A DNA stretch of 22,215 nucleotides from a virus: the IMG/VR virus record IMGVR_UViG_3300025425_000183, positions 1-22,215 of that record, one strand, 5' to 3'. This document shows, piece after piece, positions 10,081-17,278 of the stretch (the first letter of the stretch is position 1; the number at the start of each line of letters is the position of its first letter). The position numbers and the translations under genes are program-made. The notes under the pieces were generated by a model. That model did no database searches. It was not told where the DNA came from and saw only the letters and a program-made list of their open reading frames with translations.

Positions 10081-10254
10081 ATGACTGATATAACTAAATA
10101 CAGGAATGTGTCATTAACCCATGACACTTATAAGAAATTGATAACGTTATCCAAAATATTATTACCGGATGCTAAATTATCAATTAGTAAAACCATAGAA
10201 TCAATTGCAAATGAGAAAGCGAAAAAATTAAATGGCAAATTTAAAAAAGCGTAG
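10081..10254 (+). CDS. Ribbon-helix-helix (Arc/MetJ-type) DNA-binding protein
   Basis: Protein of 57 residues. KYRNVSLTHDTYKKLITLSKI gives the RHH beta strand (YRNVSL, residues 7-12) and helix A; SISKTIESIANEKAKK gives helix B after a turn (PDAKL). This is the size and layout of a small dimeric RHH transcription factor. Such proteins bind palindromes, and the phage has palindromes over several -10 boxes, so it is a candidate regulator of those promoters (inference). It has its own promoter and AAAGGA ribosome site. It overlaps the next gene by 23 nt. Confidence 0.75.
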   Translation: MTDITKYRNVSLTHDTYKKLITLSKILLPDAKLSISKTIESIANEKAKKLNGKFKKA

Positions 10255-10531: not shown

Positions 10532-10906
10532 ATGAACGACAACTTTAAATTAGATACGCCTTATATTGCAGGATTGTTTGATGCTAAAGGTATTATTAAA
10601 AGTTCTACAAAAACAAAGTGGCATTGGAAAATGGAACTGTCTATGGCAGATAGAGATGTTATAAAGTTGATTCATGAGACTTTAAAGTGTGGTGAGTTAC
10701 GTAAAATTAAAAAACAATGGCGTTGGACATGTTTTAATAAAGATTGTTTCTTTGTTGCAAGAGAATTATGGGCTTATGCCTTAGTTAAATTACACATGAT
10801 AGAAAAAGTTATAGATTATTATGGTCCTGATATACAAGATCTTGATGATAATGTAATTGAACTCGATAAATTTAGAAATAACATATGGTTTGGGAAGAAA
10901 AAATAA
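10532..10906 (+). CDS. LAGLIDADG-like protein, catalytic acid replaced by Lys
   Basis: Protein of 124 residues with one LAGLIDADG motif, IAGLFDAKG at residues 12-20. In active enzymes the residue before the final Gly is Asp or Glu and binds metal; here it is Lys19, so cleavage is unlikely. The rest fits a single LAGLIDADG domain: basic strands (WHWKMELSMADRDVIKLI, KKQWRWTCFNKD) and a C-terminal helix (AYALVKLHMIEKVIDYY). It may have been kept as a DNA-binding regulator. It has its own promoter at 10478 and is coupled to the next ORF by TAATG. Confidence 0.75.
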   Translation: MNDNFKLDTPYIAGLFDAKGIIKSSTKTKWHWKMELSMADRDVIKLIHETLKCGELRKIKKQWRWTCFNKDCFFVARELWAYALVKLHMIEKVIDYYGPDIQDLDDNVIELDKFRNNIWFGKKK

Positions 10907-11533: not shown

Positions 11534-11981
11534 TGAAAATATAATAAATTCTATACAATTAGGAAAAACTATACAAAAATTTATTACAACAATAGACGGT
11601 TTTTTTGTAGAACCTAAAAAAGAAGAGTATTACGAATTATTAAGAGCATTTAAACATTGTAAGAGGGTTATAAAAGATATTAATTATATAAAAAAAGTTA
11701 AACGTAGAAGTATTAGAGAGTGGCTTTGGACCTGGATATTATTTTTTTATGCTAGACCGGAGAGTGCTTTTTTTGCCTTAAAAAATACTAAAAGAGATTC
11801 AAAATTTTATGTAAATGAATATTGGATTCTTAAAAATGATATTAAAGAAGTTGAAGAATGTATTGATCAATTAGATGAAACTCTTGATCAATTTGAAATT
11901 TTTTCTTTAAGAATGAAAGAAGTGGATAAAAAGTTTGAAACTATTGCAAAAGAAATAGGTGAGTATGATAAAAAAAAGTAA
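11520..11981 (+). CDS. 153-residue unknown protein
   Basis: ATG 11520 with AGGA at 11511-11514; the GTG at 11517 is too close to that site. Residues about 60-90 include a Trp/Phe-rich, partly amphipathic segment (IREWLWTWILFFYARPESAFFAL) that might touch a membrane or form a hydrophobic core. The last 60 residues are acidic coiled coil (IKEVEECIDQLDETLDQFE). No family recognised. It overlaps the exonuclease gene start by 17 nt. Confidence 0.7.
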   Translation: MIKNNENIINSIQLGKTIQKFITTIDGFFVEPKKEEYYELLRAFKHCKRVIKDINYIKKVKRRSIREWLWTWILFFYARPESAFFALKNTKRDSKFYVNEYWILKNDIKEVEECIDQLDETLDQFEIFSLRMKEVDKKFETIAKEIGEYDKKK

Positions 11982-12708
11982 CAAATACAGCTATATACAA
12001 GGAAAACAGCTCACGGACCCCGGATCAGGGACGAGGATGTATGAGATTGGTAATTACAAATTACCTAGTGTTACGACTGTACTCGGTGCCACAAAAAATC
12101 AAGATTTTATAAAAAAATGGAAAGCTCGAGTGGGGGAAACAAATGCAGAACAAATCAAGAACCATTCAAGTTCACGTGGAACATGCATGCACAAATTCTT
12201 GGAGCACTATGTTCTTGGGACCAATATCATTGATCTAACACCCATAGGTCAAGAAGCACGGCCCATGGCTGATAAAATTATAGAGATGGGTCTTGCACCC
12301 GTAGATGAATATTATGGTAGTGAAGTTATGTTACACTATCCTGGCCTGTACGCGGGTGCTACAGACCTTATATGCAGTCATAATGGTATGGAGACTGTTG
12401 TCGATTTCAAGCAGTCTAATCGACCAAAAAGAGAAGAATGGATTGAAGATTATTATTTACAAATTGCAGCCTACGCTATGGCCCACGATTATGTTTATGG
12501 ATCTAAAATTAAACAAGGTGTCATTATGGTTTGTACGCCAGATTTATACTATCAAGAGTTTAAAGTTGAAGGATTACAATTCAGGAAATGGAAACATGAG
12601 TTTCTAAAAAGATTGGACATGTATAATGAATTAAAATTTAGTGAGAAAGAGAAAGTTAAAGTAGATACTAATGAATTATTAAAAGAATTTGAGAAGGATA
12701 AATCATGA
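11965..12708 (+). CDS. PD-(D/E)XK exonuclease, RecB/MGME1-like
   Basis: From ATG 11965 (GTG 11959 is possible) the protein has 247 residues. Motifs: LPSVTTVL near 33-40, RGTCMH (71-76), YPGLYAGATDLI with Asp134, VVDFKQ (D147, K149) and YYLQIAAY (Q166, Y170). This order is that of RecB/Cas4-type nucleases, close to the MGME1 mitochondrial exonuclease and phage exonucleases. No Fe-S cysteines as in Cas4. It likely processes DNA ends in phage recombination or nucleotide recycling. The stop shares ATGA with the following HNH-like gene, suggesting joint function. Confidence 0.85.
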   Translation: MIKKSNKYSYIQGKQLTDPGSGTRMYEIGNYKLPSVTTVLGATKNQDFIKKWKARVGETNAEQIKNHSSSRGTCMHKFLEHYVLGTNIIDLTPIGQEARPMADKIIEMGLAPVDEYYGSEVMLHYPGLYAGATDLICSHNGMETVVDFKQSNRPKREEWIEDYYLQIAAYAMAHDYVYGSKIKQGVIMVCTPDLYYQEFKVEGLQFRKWKHEFLKRLDMYNELKFSEKEKVKVDTNELLKEFEKDKS

Positions 12709-13400
12709 AAGCTGGAAGCGGAAAACATCCAATAAGATATACACACCCAATAACGGGTGTTGTCTCACCACAGTCTTGGTATATAAATGAACAGGGCATA
12801 AAGAAAAACATTAGCAGTAAGTATATGGAGTATCAAGTTGATGATAAATGGGTAAAAGCAAAGTTAGTTCCTCATCTTAGGGAGTATAGTATAAAATATT
12901 ATAATTCTAAAAAAGGTTTTATGCTGAAGATTCATGGCTCGATGACTAGAAAGGTAAAGGATAGGCTAAAACAAGGTAAAACTCTGCATGGAGAGTTTGA
13001 ATTTAAAGATGATCGTCGTGGTCGATGCGATAAACTTTTAGAAGCTTTTGATAAACAAGTGGCACGATACGGAGATAGATGTCCGATGACCCATATACCT
13101 TTTACTATGGATAAGCCTATTGAGCTAAGAGATATAAACAACTATCACGGTGGAGTTTATTCCAATGTATCAGCGGACCGTATTTTTAATCCTATAGAGT
13201 ACACCGAACAAAATACAATATTTACTTCTCAATTATGGAATTTAAAAAAAGGTACTAGTTCTATTGAAGAACTAAAATTTATTTTCATACCAGAAGTTTT
13301 GACACGATATAAAGCAATTGTAATAGAACGATTTCCTGATCAAATATACAAAATTAATGAGTTAGAGAACGGGGCGGAGCACCCTCAAGAGAGACGATAG
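12705..13400 (+). CDS. HNH-like / endonuclease-like phage protein
   Basis: Protein of 231 residues. The C-terminal half has CPMTHIPFT, then NVSADRIFN, YTEQNTIFTSQLWNLKKG. This resembles the HNH pattern of phage nucleases (Cys-Pro-x-Thr, N-x-S-x-D-R-I, GY-x-x-x-N, N-x-x-K), although the canonical His-Asn-His residues are not all obvious. The N-terminal ~110 residues are basic and may bind DNA. Translationally coupled to the exonuclease by ATGA, which fits a recombination or DNA-degradation pair. It could alternatively be an inactive HNH-fold binding protein. Confidence 0.6.
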   Translation: MKAGSGKHPIRYTHPITGVVSPQSWYINEQGIKKNISSKYMEYQVDDKWVKAKLVPHLREYSIKYYNSKKGFMLKIHGSMTRKVKDRLKQGKTLHGEFEFKDDRRGRCDKLLEAFDKQVARYGDRCPMTHIPFTMDKPIELRDINNYHGGVYSNVSADRIFNPIEYTEQNTIFTSQLWNLKKGTSSIEELKFIFIPEVLTRYKAIVIERFPDQIYKINELENGAEHPQERR

Positions 13401-13867: not shown

Positions 13868-13903
13868 GACTGAATTGTGTTCCAATTGTGGCAAGATTAA
13901 GGC

Positions 13904-14310
13904 AAAATAAGGCAGATTACTGCGACACCCAAGGTGTCGCAAGGTGTCGCATAAATGCGTTTTATGCGGGTTTTGCTATCGCAGGGTGTCGCGAGATTTC
14001 TGTTTTTCTGTGTCATTGTGTCGCATGTCTGTATACTTATGTCGCAGGTAAAGCCCATATAGAGAAAAAACTGCGATAGCTACCTTGAAAAAAATGGCGT
14101 TAAATGAACAACTGCGACACCTGCGATACCACTGCGACACCCCAGGTGTCGCATGTTTTTGGTCAAATGGACAGCGGTTACCAACACTTCTAGGAGATAG
14201 GTCAACATTATTTACTTCTTGCGACACCTCCCAGGATTTTTTAGCGCAAATAAATAAAAAAAATAAAAATATGCTCTTTAGGTGTCGCAGCACCAAAGCT
14301 GCCTTATTTT
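13904..14310. repeat. 407-bp element with 12-bp inverted ends and GCGACACC array
   Basis: AAAATAAGGCAG (13904-13915) and CTGCCTTATTTT (14299-14310) are perfect inverted ends. Between them lie nine exact GCGACACC/GGTGTCGC sites, at 13922, 13933, 13943, 13985, 14114, 14134, 14145, 14221 and 14281, plus degenerate ones near 14017 and 14123, in both orientations. AATTGTGTT (13873) and AACACAATT (14312) form an outer inverted pair. Frames across it translate the repeats and do not look coding. It could be a replication origin with iterons, an operator array, or a non-autonomous mobile element. Confidence 0.75.
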
Positions 14311-14375
14311 AAACACAATTGAGGCAATTTTTATTTTCCCTGTTCGTGCCTATATTTTTGATATATAGAGGTTTC

Positions 14376-14696
14376 ATGCCTAAAAGAAAAAACAAATCTA
14401 GAAATTTAAACACCTATTCTAAACCTAAATTGATTAAACAAGAGGTTACATTCCCCTATTCAAGATATAAAATAGATTGGTGTGACATCGTCACTGAAGG
14501 CGGTTGGGGATCTGAAAAAGAATTTAATAACATGAAATTAGCAACTCCAGTAAGTGAAGGTTATCTTTTTAGTAAGGATAAACACACTGTAAAAATTTTT
14601 GCGGGTTATGATATTGATGATGATGGTACTATTACTTTTTCTGAACGATCGGTGTTTCCGACTTCGTGTGTTCTGAAGATGACGAAACTTCATTAA
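14376..14696 (+). CDS. 106-residue unknown phage protein
   Basis: ATG 14376 is preceded by AGAGG (14367-14371, short spacing). The upstream in-frame extension to 14319 is hydrophobic and lies next to the repeat element, so I exclude it. The N-terminus is basic (MPKRKNKSRNLNTYSKPKL); the rest (YKIDWCDIVTEGGWGSEKEF, then SEGYLFSKDKHTVKIFAGYD) looks like a small beta-rich domain of a type seen in phages, without known activity. The 3' end overlaps the convergent small terminase gene by 65 bp. Confidence 0.72.
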   Translation: MPKRKNKSRNLNTYSKPKLIKQEVTFPYSRYKIDWCDIVTEGGWGSEKEFNNMKLATPVSEGYLFSKDKHTVKIFAGYDIDDDGTITFSERSVFPTSCVLKMTKLH

Positions 14697-15177
14697 CTTC
14701 TTCTTCTAATGCATCAACAGTCTTCATATTTAACATCGGAGCGTAGTCTTCTAAAATCTTTTTCATCTTTAATTCTATTTCTTCCTCTGACATATCTTCT
14801 ATTTTTCCATGTTTTATTATTTTTCTGTCTATGTATAGTCCTGCTGCCTTGCCTCGAGATACTTCAGCGTTTACAGCAGAAGAGAAACTCCCTTTCTTCA
14901 AAGCCGCTGTCTTAATTCTGTCTAGTTCAGCTAAATGTTTATCGTACGTAACTTCATGTTTAGCTAATCTCTCTTGTTTAAGTGAATCTACATATTGAAC
15001 TACTAATGGAGATAGTCTAGGATTTAATAACTCTGATCCTTCTACCTTGCACCGCTTATGACTGTACCCAGCTAACTTAGCTGCTTCTGATTGAGATACA
15101 GGACCTTCTTCATCACCGAATACTATAAACTCGGCAAATCTCTTTTGCATTTCTGTTAATCTTTTTGGTACTCCCAT
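14632..15177 (-). CDS. terS: Terminase small subunit
   Basis: Protein of 181 residues. The N-terminal part has the helix-turn-helix of small terminases: LTEMQKRFAEFIV, SQSEAAKLAGYS and GSELLNP, followed by helical oligomerisation segments and an acidic, low-complexity tail. It recognises phage DNA and hands it to the large subunit (at 20733). It is leftward and 5.5 kb away from its partner, instead of adjacent. The ATG lies 6 nt after a TAAATT -10 box with no ribosome site, so translation may be leaderless. Its transcript is convergent with the gene at 14376. Confidence 0.82.
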   Translation of the reverse strand: MGVPKRLTEMQKRFAEFIVFGDEEGPVSQSEAAKLAGYSHKRCKVEGSELLNPRLSPLVVQYVDSLKQERLAKHEVTYDKHLAELDRIKTAALKKGSFSSAVNAEVSRGKAAGLYIDRKIIKHGKIEDMSEEEIELKMKKILEDYAPMLNMKTVDALEEEVNEVSSSSEHTKSETPIVQKK

Positions 15178-15805: not shown

Positions 15806-16189
15806 ATGGGCCCAGAGGCTAAATTATACCAAAAAGTTAAGCGTCATTTTAAGGATTTTTCACTTCTCAGACTTGAAAACATTAGCTTACTTGGTACTCC
15901 TGATCTATTGGTCTACAATAATAATCGCCACTTCTTCACTATTGAATTAAAAGTAACCAAGAGTAAAAAAGTTCGTTTCTCACCACATCAAATTGCGTTC
16001 CATTTAAGGCATCCTGACAATACATTTATCCTTATAGAGGCCCTTGGTCCGTGGTCCTCGAATACTTTTCCTATATCCATGTACCATGGTTCCCGGATCA
16101 GGGAGCTTGTAGCTTCCGGCTTGAAGCTTGACGCTTGTTACTCTGGTTGGGATGCTTGCCGCTTGAAACTTTCGGAGCTTGGTGCTTGA
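15806..16189 (+). CDS. VRR-NUC-like PD-(D/E)XK nuclease
   Basis: Protein of 127 residues. PEAKLYQKVKRHF helix, then GTPDLLVY (GTPD at 30-33), FFTIELKV (E47, K49) and FSPHQIAFH (S59, Q62): the G-x-P-D ... E-x-K ... Q signature of VRR-NUC and small Holliday-junction-type nucleases. It should cut branched or structured phage DNA. The last ~30 residues (from about residue 100) are encoded by the GCTTGNN heptad repeats, giving a tail of Leu/Ala/Ser/Cys repeats that the family normally lacks. No clear ribosome site. Confidence 0.8.
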   Translation: MGPEAKLYQKVKRHFKDFSLLRLENISLLGTPDLLVYNNNRHFFTIELKVTKSKKVRFSPHQIAFHLRHPDNTFILIEALGPWSSNTFPISMYHGSRIRELVASGLKLDACYSGWDACRLKLSELGA

Positions 16190-16239
16190 TGCTTGGCGCT
16201 TGAAGCTTGATGCTTGGCGCTTGCAGCTTGAAGCTTCCT
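16105..16239. repeat. Tandem GCTTGNN heptad repeat, cluster 1
   Basis: Units of 7 bp, consensus GCTTGNN, run in register from 16105 to 16174 (10 units, some degenerate), skip 2 nt, and continue from 16177 to 16239 (9 units: GGT, GAT, GGC, GAA, GAT, GGC, GCA, GAA ending after GCTT). GAT-GGC-GAA forms a partial higher-order order. The first units are inside the nuclease gene. Open frames on the opposite strand (KLQAPSI-type) are translation of the repeat. Confidence 0.85.
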
Positions 16240-16302
16240 AAATATAGGCGCGTGGGATTTTCTAATTGGTTCGGGAGCCTTGGGCCGCGGATCATGGCGC
16301 CT

Positions 16303-16323
16303 GCACCAGCCGGTGCCGTTTTT
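16303..16323 (+). terminator. Rho-independent terminator after the nuclease operon
   Basis: GCACC (16303-16307), loop AGCC, GGTGC (16312-16316), CG and then T5 (16319-16323). It would end the rightward transcript that begins at 15214. Stem is short but GC-rich. Confidence 0.5.
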
Positions 16324-16334
16324 AAAAAAATCCA

Positions 16335-16493
16335 TTAGTGCTTGACGCTTGAAGCTTTTATTTTTGTTATACCTAACGCGCGCAGCTGTGAGCTGGACAA
16401 CGTGCGGCCTTTATTAATATTCAAAAATGATTCAGGGCGCATTAAATGACCGTCCCTGGATCTATACATAAAAGTGTACTTTGTTTTTTTCAT
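16335..16493 (-). CDS. 52-residue basic protein, end encoded by repeats
   Basis: Starts at ATG 16493 just after the stop of the Gp88-like gene (TAATATG), so it is co-transcribed. MKKTKYTFMYRSRDGHLMRP, then GRTLSSSQLRALGITKI; the last residues (KASSVKH) are encoded by heptad units 16340-16360. No known domain. The upstream 8 codons of the longer frame overlap the previous gene and are not needed. Confidence 0.6.
   Translation of the reverse strand: MKKTKYTFMYRSRDGHLMRPESFLNINKGRTLSSSQLRALGITKIKASSVKH
16340..16360. repeat. GCTTGNN heptad repeat, cluster 2
   Basis: Three units in register: GCTTGAC, GCTTGAA, GCTTTTA. It forms the 3' end of the leftward 52-residue gene, as cluster 1 forms the 3' end of the nuclease gene. 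Confidence 0.7.
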
Positions 16494-16494
16494 A

Positions 16495-17103
16495 TTAGTG
16501 CTCACCATAACAAACATTTGAAACTGATTTATCCCAGCAAGCTCTACAATCTTTACACTTATTACCCTGAAGAGGGGCCGGGCATGTTACATCAATTTTT
16601 TTAGTTGAGACTGTCGACGTGTTGGGCCAGCTGGTCCCTGCTGCCTGGTCCACCATTGGAATGGAGAACCGGACAACAAGATTGTCAGGAGCTTCAACAA
16701 TATAGTCTTTGGTCCATGCTTCTCTAGTTGGCATCCAATGCTTAACTTCAGGCGTCAACCTACAGACCTCGTAAATTCGTCTTAAATGGTCCAGGTTTTG
16801 AACATCACCTGAATCGTGCCATCTAAAATATTTGACCTTCTTTGAATTAATTTGTGCGGCCATAGCCTCCACCCATTTAGGATGAGTTAAAGATCTAAAT
16901 CTTTTATATTGCGCGTCTATAACATTTTGGAATCTATAACGGCCTCGTTTGTAGGCGTAACAGTTAGAACAGACAGAGTTTGGAATTAATCTTAATTTAG
17001 TACCTGTTTTGCATTCGTGAGCTGGTGTTGAATATGCAAACCCGGGCATCTTGCCGGGCTTGCTTAAAGTGTGAGTTATTGCTTGTGCTTCTTTTATATT
17101 CAT
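16495..17103 (-). CDS. Gp88-like cysteine-rich phage protein
   Basis: Protein of 202 residues. GKMPGFAYSTPAHECKTG, SVCSNCYAYKGR-like (C45, C48), FRWHDSGDVQ, HWMPTREAW, and a C-terminal cluster C174, C183, C186, C189, C198 (CPAPLQGNKCKDCRACW). This matches the phage family known from mycobacteriophage gene product 88, whose biochemical function I do not know. The cysteines suggest a zinc or Fe-S site. AGGAG (complement of 17114-17118) precedes ATG 17103. Leftward cassette between heptad repeat clusters 2 and 3, opposite to the surrounding genes. Confidence 0.8.
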   Translation of the reverse strand: MNIKEAQAITHTLSKPGKMPGFAYSTPAHECKTGTKLRLIPNSVCSNCYAYKRGRYRFQNVIDAQYKRFRSLTHPKWVEAMAAQINSKKVKYFRWHDSGDVQNLDHLRRIYEVCRLTPEVKHWMPTREAWTKDYIVEAPDNLVVRFSIPMVDQAAGTSWPNTSTVSTKKIDVTCPAPLQGNKCKDCRACWDKSVSNVCYGEH

Positions 17104-17113
17104 TGTTTTATTT

Positions 17114-17161
17114 CTCCTGTATATTTTATTTATTAGTACTATTTAATTGTGTTCGAATTAA
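17114..17161 (-). promoter_or_regulatory. Leftward promoter-leader, copy A
   Basis: On the minus strand: TTAATT (17161-17156), 17 bp, TACTAA (17138-17133), then the leader with ATACAGGAG (ending 17114) before ATG 17103. The -35 is weak, but the same arrangement recurs at 17607-17656, and AATTGTGTTC plus AAGGCTTG are conserved in both, supporting function. Confidence 0.45.
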
Positions 17162-17162
17162 G

Positions 17163-17232
17163 GCTTGCCGCTTGACGCTTGGAGCTTGCCGCTTGGTCCT
17201 TGGGCCCTGGTCCATGGAGCTTGAGACTTTTA
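17163..17232. repeat. GCTTGNN heptad repeat, cluster 3
   Basis: Ten 7-bp units in perfect register: GCTTGCC, GCTTGAC, GCTTGGA, GCTTGCC, GCTTGGT, then degenerate CCTTGGG, CCCTGGT, CCATGGA, then GCTTGAG, ACTTTTA. It begins directly after the leftward promoter A. Confidence 0.8.
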
Positions 17233-17255
17233 AAAAAGCGCTCGCAGCTGGCAAC

Positions 17256-17278
17256 ATAGGCGCGCGGTAGGCGCCTAT
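17256..17278. other. GC-rich hairpin in intergenic gap
   Basis: ATAGGCGC (17256-17263) and GCGCCTAT (17271-17278) form a perfect 8-bp stem with a 7-nt loop. It lies between cluster 3 and the end of the leftward gene at 17327. No T-run on either strand, so it may be a processing or boundary element. A related TATAGGCGCG follows cluster 1 at about 16242. Confidence 0.5.

Follow-up and report, generated by a model that had tools for sequence, protein, structure and literature searches.

A phased array of short repeats beside the small terminase gene of a probable SAR11 phage, a candidate initiation site whose word changes between relatives

What does a bacteriophage do with a gene-free stretch of DNA in which short words are repeated on both strands? 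The question is raised by a locus in a 22,215-base IMG/VR virus record (the window), and the answer at which we arrive is that the array most likely marks the start of a phage DNA process, for example the copying of the genome.

The repeat array and its surroundings

An earlier sequence-only reading had reported nine exact copies of an 8-mer, on both strands, within about 370 bp. A recount of words in the window recovers them: GCGACACC occurs nine times in 13922–14288, four times forward and five times reverse. Chance was assessed with 200 first-order Markov sequences of 448 bp each, in which the commonest 8-mer was counted; nine copies were reached in none of the 200, eight in one, and four or fewer in the other 199. 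Counting both strands, the shorter words TGCGACA and TGCGAYA are present 10 and 13 times, respectively, in 13921–14289, and outside the array TGCGAYA is found once in the 22 kb, at 13026 within an endonuclease-like gene. The array sites beyond GCGACACC are TGCGATA (three) and TGTCGCA without the final CC (two).

The array is real and gene-free, and its short repeats number about fourteen. With these extra sites, and the conserved GCGC with its A/T-only tract, the feature exceeds the extent first noted (Table 1). The perfect 12-bp inverted ends and the outer pair AATTGTGTT / AACACAATT described in the earlier reading are present, and the array is indeed richer in G+C than its surroundings (42.5% in 13904–14310 versus 34.0% for the whole window). 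Between 13873 and 14320 inspection of the reading frames, made without family search, gave only short overlapping ORFs, none of them gene-like, in agreement with the claim that no believable gene lies here.

Table 1. Features of the array and of its neighbourhood in the window
Feature	Position	Strand	Basis
Left outer flank: AATTGTGTT, GGCA-type repeats and, last, the 12-bp inverted end AAAATAAGGCAG (13904–13915)	13873–13915	+	Sequence; partly kept in relatives G007, L194 and L009
Palindrome TGCGACACCCAAGGTGTCGCA	13921–13941	.	Sequence
Left cluster of reverse sites; cores start at 13935, 13945, 13977, 13987, 14019 and 14040; steps 10, 32, 10, 32 and 21 bp	13933–14046	-	Site coordinates; phasing over relatives
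Right cluster of forward sites, 14072, 14113, 14122 and 14133; forward steps 9, 11 and 87	14072–14141	+	Site coordinates
Palindrome TGCGACACCCCAGGTGTCGCA, closing the right cluster; its 5-bp core spacing recurs in several relatives with other words	14133–14153	.	Sequence and relatives
Conserved spacer ACCAACACTTCTAGGAGATAGG, common to relatives using other words	14180–14201	+	Comparison with relatives
Single forward site S1, 87 bp past the last right-cluster site	14220–14229	+	Site coordinates, relatives
GCGC, then 25-bp A/T-only tract	14244–14272	+	Sequence; relatives
Single reverse site S2	14280–14290	-	Site coordinates, relatives
Right outer flank: CTGCCTTATTTT (14299–14310) and AACACAATT	14299–14320	+	Sequence
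57-aa ribbon-helix-helix (RHH)-like protein that hardly varies across the group; putative reader of the GA[CT]A core	10081–10254	+	Sequence
phrog_298 exonuclease, left conserved neighbour of the array	11959–12708	+	Family match
phrog_25889 gene, adjoining the array and kept beside it in relatives; predicted small beta-barrel	14376–14696	+	Family match, model
Small terminase subunit TerS (Terminase_2, helix-turn-helix)	14632–15177	-	Family match

On the left of the array lie the phrog_298 exonuclease and the endonuclease-like gene; on the right the 3' end of the phrog_25889 gene overlaps TerS, which is on the opposite strand. The structural model of the phrog_25889 protein gives SH3/Sm-like matches with Z below 8, which may share only a common arrangement. 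The primase gene is about 12 kb from the array.

Two further observations concern the window at large. Against one relative (G003) it shows a recombination boundary at about 10.2 kb, the two being near 100% identical from 10.5 kb to TerS and 62–97% identical in the upstream genes. A second family of short repeats, made of AAGCTTCAAGC / CAAGCTCC words, is located at 16138–16335 (-) and 17025–17270 (+), where small ORFs close to the GP88 gene have it in their tails. Many loci carry this family upstream of TerS, and it is there, at a distance of 1–1.5 kb from TerS, that contig ends accumulate.

Among annotated phages, the best or near-best matches of the window TerS and TerL are Pelagibacter phages HTVC027P and HTVC023P and phage 023Pt_psg01, and two of five TerS-related loci in genome assemblies come from Pelagibacteraceae single-cell or metagenome-assembled genomes. 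We therefore infer that this is probably a SAR11 phage, a podovirus like HTVC023P and HTVC027P. HTVC023P-type phages are, according to the available part of PMC9599517, widespread phages of SAR11.

Place, spacing and wording of the array in relatives

Relatives were gathered by a TerS scan (at least 80 loci), a polymerase scan and three exonuclease scans of IMG/VR. The locus sets are weighted to near relatives and some contigs were fetched twice; removal of contained sequences reduced 286 to 251. The array occupies one constant position in many of the IMG/VR relatives, and likewise in genomes related to isolates: it is flanked on one side by the phrog_298 exonuclease and on the other by the phrog_25889 gene beside TerS. 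Both of these genes are present in 122 contigs among the matches listed, and 68 of these have an over-represented 6-mer at p ≤ 0.05 (55 at p ≤ 0.01), 54 falling short of p 0.05 in a test that scores one exact 6-mer and misses degenerate arrays. The corresponding gap of 023Pt contains an array of TGGCACA, reached in none of 1000 controls, and that of HTVC023P one of TAGGAA (p = 0.001). By the exact-word test the gap of HTVC027P was not significant and that of DSL-LC04 had no array, and blastn of the array against annotated phages gave no match.

A blind IMG/VR scan with two neighbouring GCGATACC words brought up, among the matches listed, 118 new loci, 35 of which combine a gene of this neighbourhood with at least 10 cores in a span of 700 bp. 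When 8-mer clusters are ranked in two long contigs (G002 and G007), the array comes first. Searching relatives had been proposed from the outset, and it revealed neither a conserved coding frame nor a general absence of the repeats: relatives carry arrays, often with another word.

The constancy of place bears on the possibility that this is a mobile element, a MITE or transposon-end array with inverted termini. Its perfect 12-bp inverted ends and outer 9-bp pair would suit such an element. However, all array-bearing relatives have the array at a single syntenic place, no second copy exists in the window or in G002 and G007, the ends are only partly kept, and the spacing stays constant while the words change. 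Neither empty sites with target duplication nor second copies of the array were seen in the relatives examined. The MITE or Tn7-end interpretation offered by the earlier reading has therefore been dropped as highly improbable.

Among the matches listed, 56 of 172 TerS-bearing loci possess at least six CGAYAC cores, which fall into 30 distinct spacing patterns. Sites usually follow one another as a reverse cluster, a forward cluster, and then reverse, forward and reverse singles. Of 181 steps between sites of like orientation, 95 measure 11 bp. Most patterns place the isolated forward site at a step of 87 bp, and others at 76–78, 67 or 52–54 bp, shorter by approximately whole turns. Phase coherence at 10.5 bp is R = 0.82, and 0.67 for the 39 steps longer than 13 bp. 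Neither value was reached in 5000 sets with steps jittered by up to 5 bp, a control which ignores shared ancestry, the 30 patterns being distinct yet related. The longest A/T run in front of the phrog_25889 gene is closely preceded by GCGC in 48 of the 122 loci, versus about 0.04 GCGC per 31 bp genome-wide, and in 49 of the 122 this run ranks in the top tenth for its contig.

Relatives hold the repeats at constant spacing, while the spelling of the word changes together at all copies. The words found at this place include TGCGACACC, TCGCGACACC, TTTCGACACC, TGCGATACC, GCCGACACC, TGGACATT, ATCGCGACAC, TGTCGACACC and TGACACTTT. Between the window and relative L194 the phrog_25889 protein is identical, TerS differs at one residue in 181 (residue 126), and the right-half spacers of the array can be aligned at almost every base. 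Here the TG prefix has become CG at all six homologous right-half sites, and at one of the six L194 sites the remaining core is also replaced by a G run. It is unlikely that recombination homogenised ten-base words scattered in two orientations, and selection by a trans-acting reader is therefore inferred. The word could switch because this putative reader is exchanged or mutates, every copy then having to follow.

Candidate readers and the function of the array

Among the genes tested (TerS, LAGLIDADG-like, RHH-like, phrog_25889, primase and UvrD), none covaries with the full word, in a scan limited by short contigs and with word classes assigned by eye. TerS was rejected as reader of the full word on account of its near identity in L194 and its 100% identity in L238 and L241, the words differing in each case, and the phrog_25889 protein on account of its identity in L194. 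The LAGLIDADG-like protein (10532–10906) of L204 is approximately 90% identical to that of the window, yet L204 has the TTTCGACACC word; L224 carries the word of L219 with a very different LAGLIDADG protein, and a coincidence of W-T-W residues in the proteins of L009 and L193 did not hold up. The primase is 82% identical between the window and G003, which share a word, and 86% identical between the window and G007, which do not. No consistent pattern across word classes was seen for the UvrD helicase. The RHH-like protein is identical at 57 of 57 residues in the window, L204 and G005, whose prefixes differ, and the R/K change in its strand does not track GATAC.

Two of these proteins have features of their own. 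The LAGLIDADG-like protein is present throughout the group, and since DAKG stands in place of DADG or DGEG in the window and several relatives, its catalytic acid looks to be lost. In G002, a 63,580-base record, the frame of the UvrD-like helicase appears broken after 36 residues.

For the core of the word, to judge from sequence, two candidates may be put forward. The RHH-like protein is one for the shared GA[CT]A core, because the strand with which it would face the DNA is almost constant wherever the core is fixed and is different in three more distant phages with other words; on the same grounds TerS could read the shared CGAYAC core. Counting short fragments, 88 of the 251 contigs encode the RHH-like protein, with a strand, KYRNVSL, that is nearly constant, and those of its contigs that have strong arrays have GA[CT]A-type cores; the strand reads KYKSLAV in HTVC027P, KYKSLSV in 023Pt and KWKSVAI in HTVC023P.

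One might then suppose that a small RHH protein coats the 11-bp-phased words, as ParR does on parC, and serves in partition-like anchoring or in transcriptional control of the adjacent gene. Like parC/ParR of R1, the locus has steps of about 11 bp and clusters of four to five words, close to the two sets of about five ~11-bp repeats expected of a parC site, and there is an RHH-like protein in the genome. It differs in that the clusters are opposed rather than all direct, that no par operon adjoins, and that the carrier is a phage and not a low-copy plasmid. Moreover, prefixes differ between phages with identical RHH-like proteins, and the content of GATAC versus GACAC varies between phages having the same strand. 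The RHH assignment itself is unproven and derives from one homologue matching Pfam RHH_1 (E = 0.0023, below the curated cut-off) together with a sequence pattern, whereas 13 of 20 family members match the Ribosomal_L50 model, with a best E of 1.2e-5, better than any RHH model. Its structure model is poor (pLDDT 65), and Foldseek matched no PDB chain. An array bound in this manner seems to us rather improbable.

The pac site of phage P1 has two clusters of hexamers, and the two-cluster plan of the array, along with its fixed TerS neighbourhood, would likewise suit the initiation of packaging. At such a pac or cosB-like site rings of TerS would assemble on the phased words and the large terminase would cut nearby, perhaps at the GCGC/A-T tract. 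As expected of a site of this kind, members of the group have the array next to TerS, and this holds also for HTVC023P, whose TerS gene runs the opposite way. In the available part of PMC4737164 the SPP1 pac is described as carrying direct repeats and overlapping the start of its TerS gene, but the DNA-binding domain of SF6 TerS as having little sequence preference; that of a P1 paper (PMC9024508) makes no mention of pac hexamers. Unlike the P1 and SPP1 sites, this array lies outside the terS gene, and all six compared words changed where TerS, the expected carrier of specificity, differed at one residue only, although TerS might still read the core. Nor is there a genome-end signal, as contig ends do not pile up near the array among 172 loci; headful phages, however, need not show one. 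On balance we regard a packaging site as possible but unlikely.

Tentatively, and with less than even confidence, we consider the array to be a cis-acting site of nucleoprotein assembly, most likely an iteron-like site of replication initiation. Its words, of 9–11 bp, lie on one helix face and form two clusters that oppose each other; after them come a palindromic pair, two isolated sites, GCGC and an A/T-only tract. The origin is favoured because phased words in two opposed clusters next to such a tract are what one expects of an iteron origin; several copies of a short word do stand at helical-turn spacing, and the adjacent tract in the window is 25 bp long. Of the interpretations first offered, the iteron, operator or partition type of array is thus the part that has stood, in view of fixed position, helical phasing, opposed clusters and A/T tract. 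A putative phage-encoded multimeric protein would bind the words and wrap or loop the DNA, whereupon the A/T tract would be opened and the phage primase, helicase and polymerase loaded.

In SaPI origins an AT-rich region is surrounded by short iterons in two sets, and the specificity differs between relatives. The array resembles them in its two sets of short words, its AT-rich region and its relative-specific words, but no Rep helicase gene adjoins it. Iteron origins of plasmids and of phage satellites, such as PLE ori/RepA of Vibrio, are similar in their words repeated at whole turns, their A/T-rich tract and the switching of types between close relatives. The PLE origin has three iterons of about 30 bp; here the words are of about 9 bp, with 11-bp steps and two opposed clusters. 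In the satellite, according to the available part of PMC8263062, the iteron origin varies together with the initiator domain, the two forming a module, whereas here no linked or covarying initiator was found among the tested genes.

Several points count against an origin. No tested gene sets the word, the constant neighbour TerS is a packaging gene and the primase is remote, and the 54 non-significant contigs, HTVC027P among them, have to be reckoned with, as does the DSL-LC04 gap. The skew analysis that had been suggested for mapping the start of replication proved uninformative: cumulative GC skew gave no origin signal, and at fourfold sites the GC skew of HTVC027P, 023Pt and G002 stays unchanged from one side of the array to the other.

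Implications for the phage group

The start of replication or packaging in HTVC023P-type phages seems undescribed in the literature searched. The available part of the HTVC027P transcriptome paper (PMC12753301) makes no mention of an origin or of intergenic DNA, and that of the HTVC023P-type genome paper (PMC9599517) none of an origin of replication, intergenic DNA or skew; related literature, likewise available in part, comprises PMC7145576, PMC10504331, PMC4949242 and PMC5016525. The array thus offers a short, testable candidate locus in the isolate HTVC027P and in many environmental genomes. With its word replaced and its geometry kept, it is also a natural experiment on the co-evolution of binding sites and their readers.

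A more speculative suggestion, which we think doubtful, is that the array serves an abundant group of phages as an identity code, its geometry fixed and its word replaced at all copies at once. Were this true, co-infecting relatives, satellites and origin-directed nucleases could tell phages apart by it, and the initiation site would seem to be under diversifying selection, its reader belonging to a protein family so far unrecognised.
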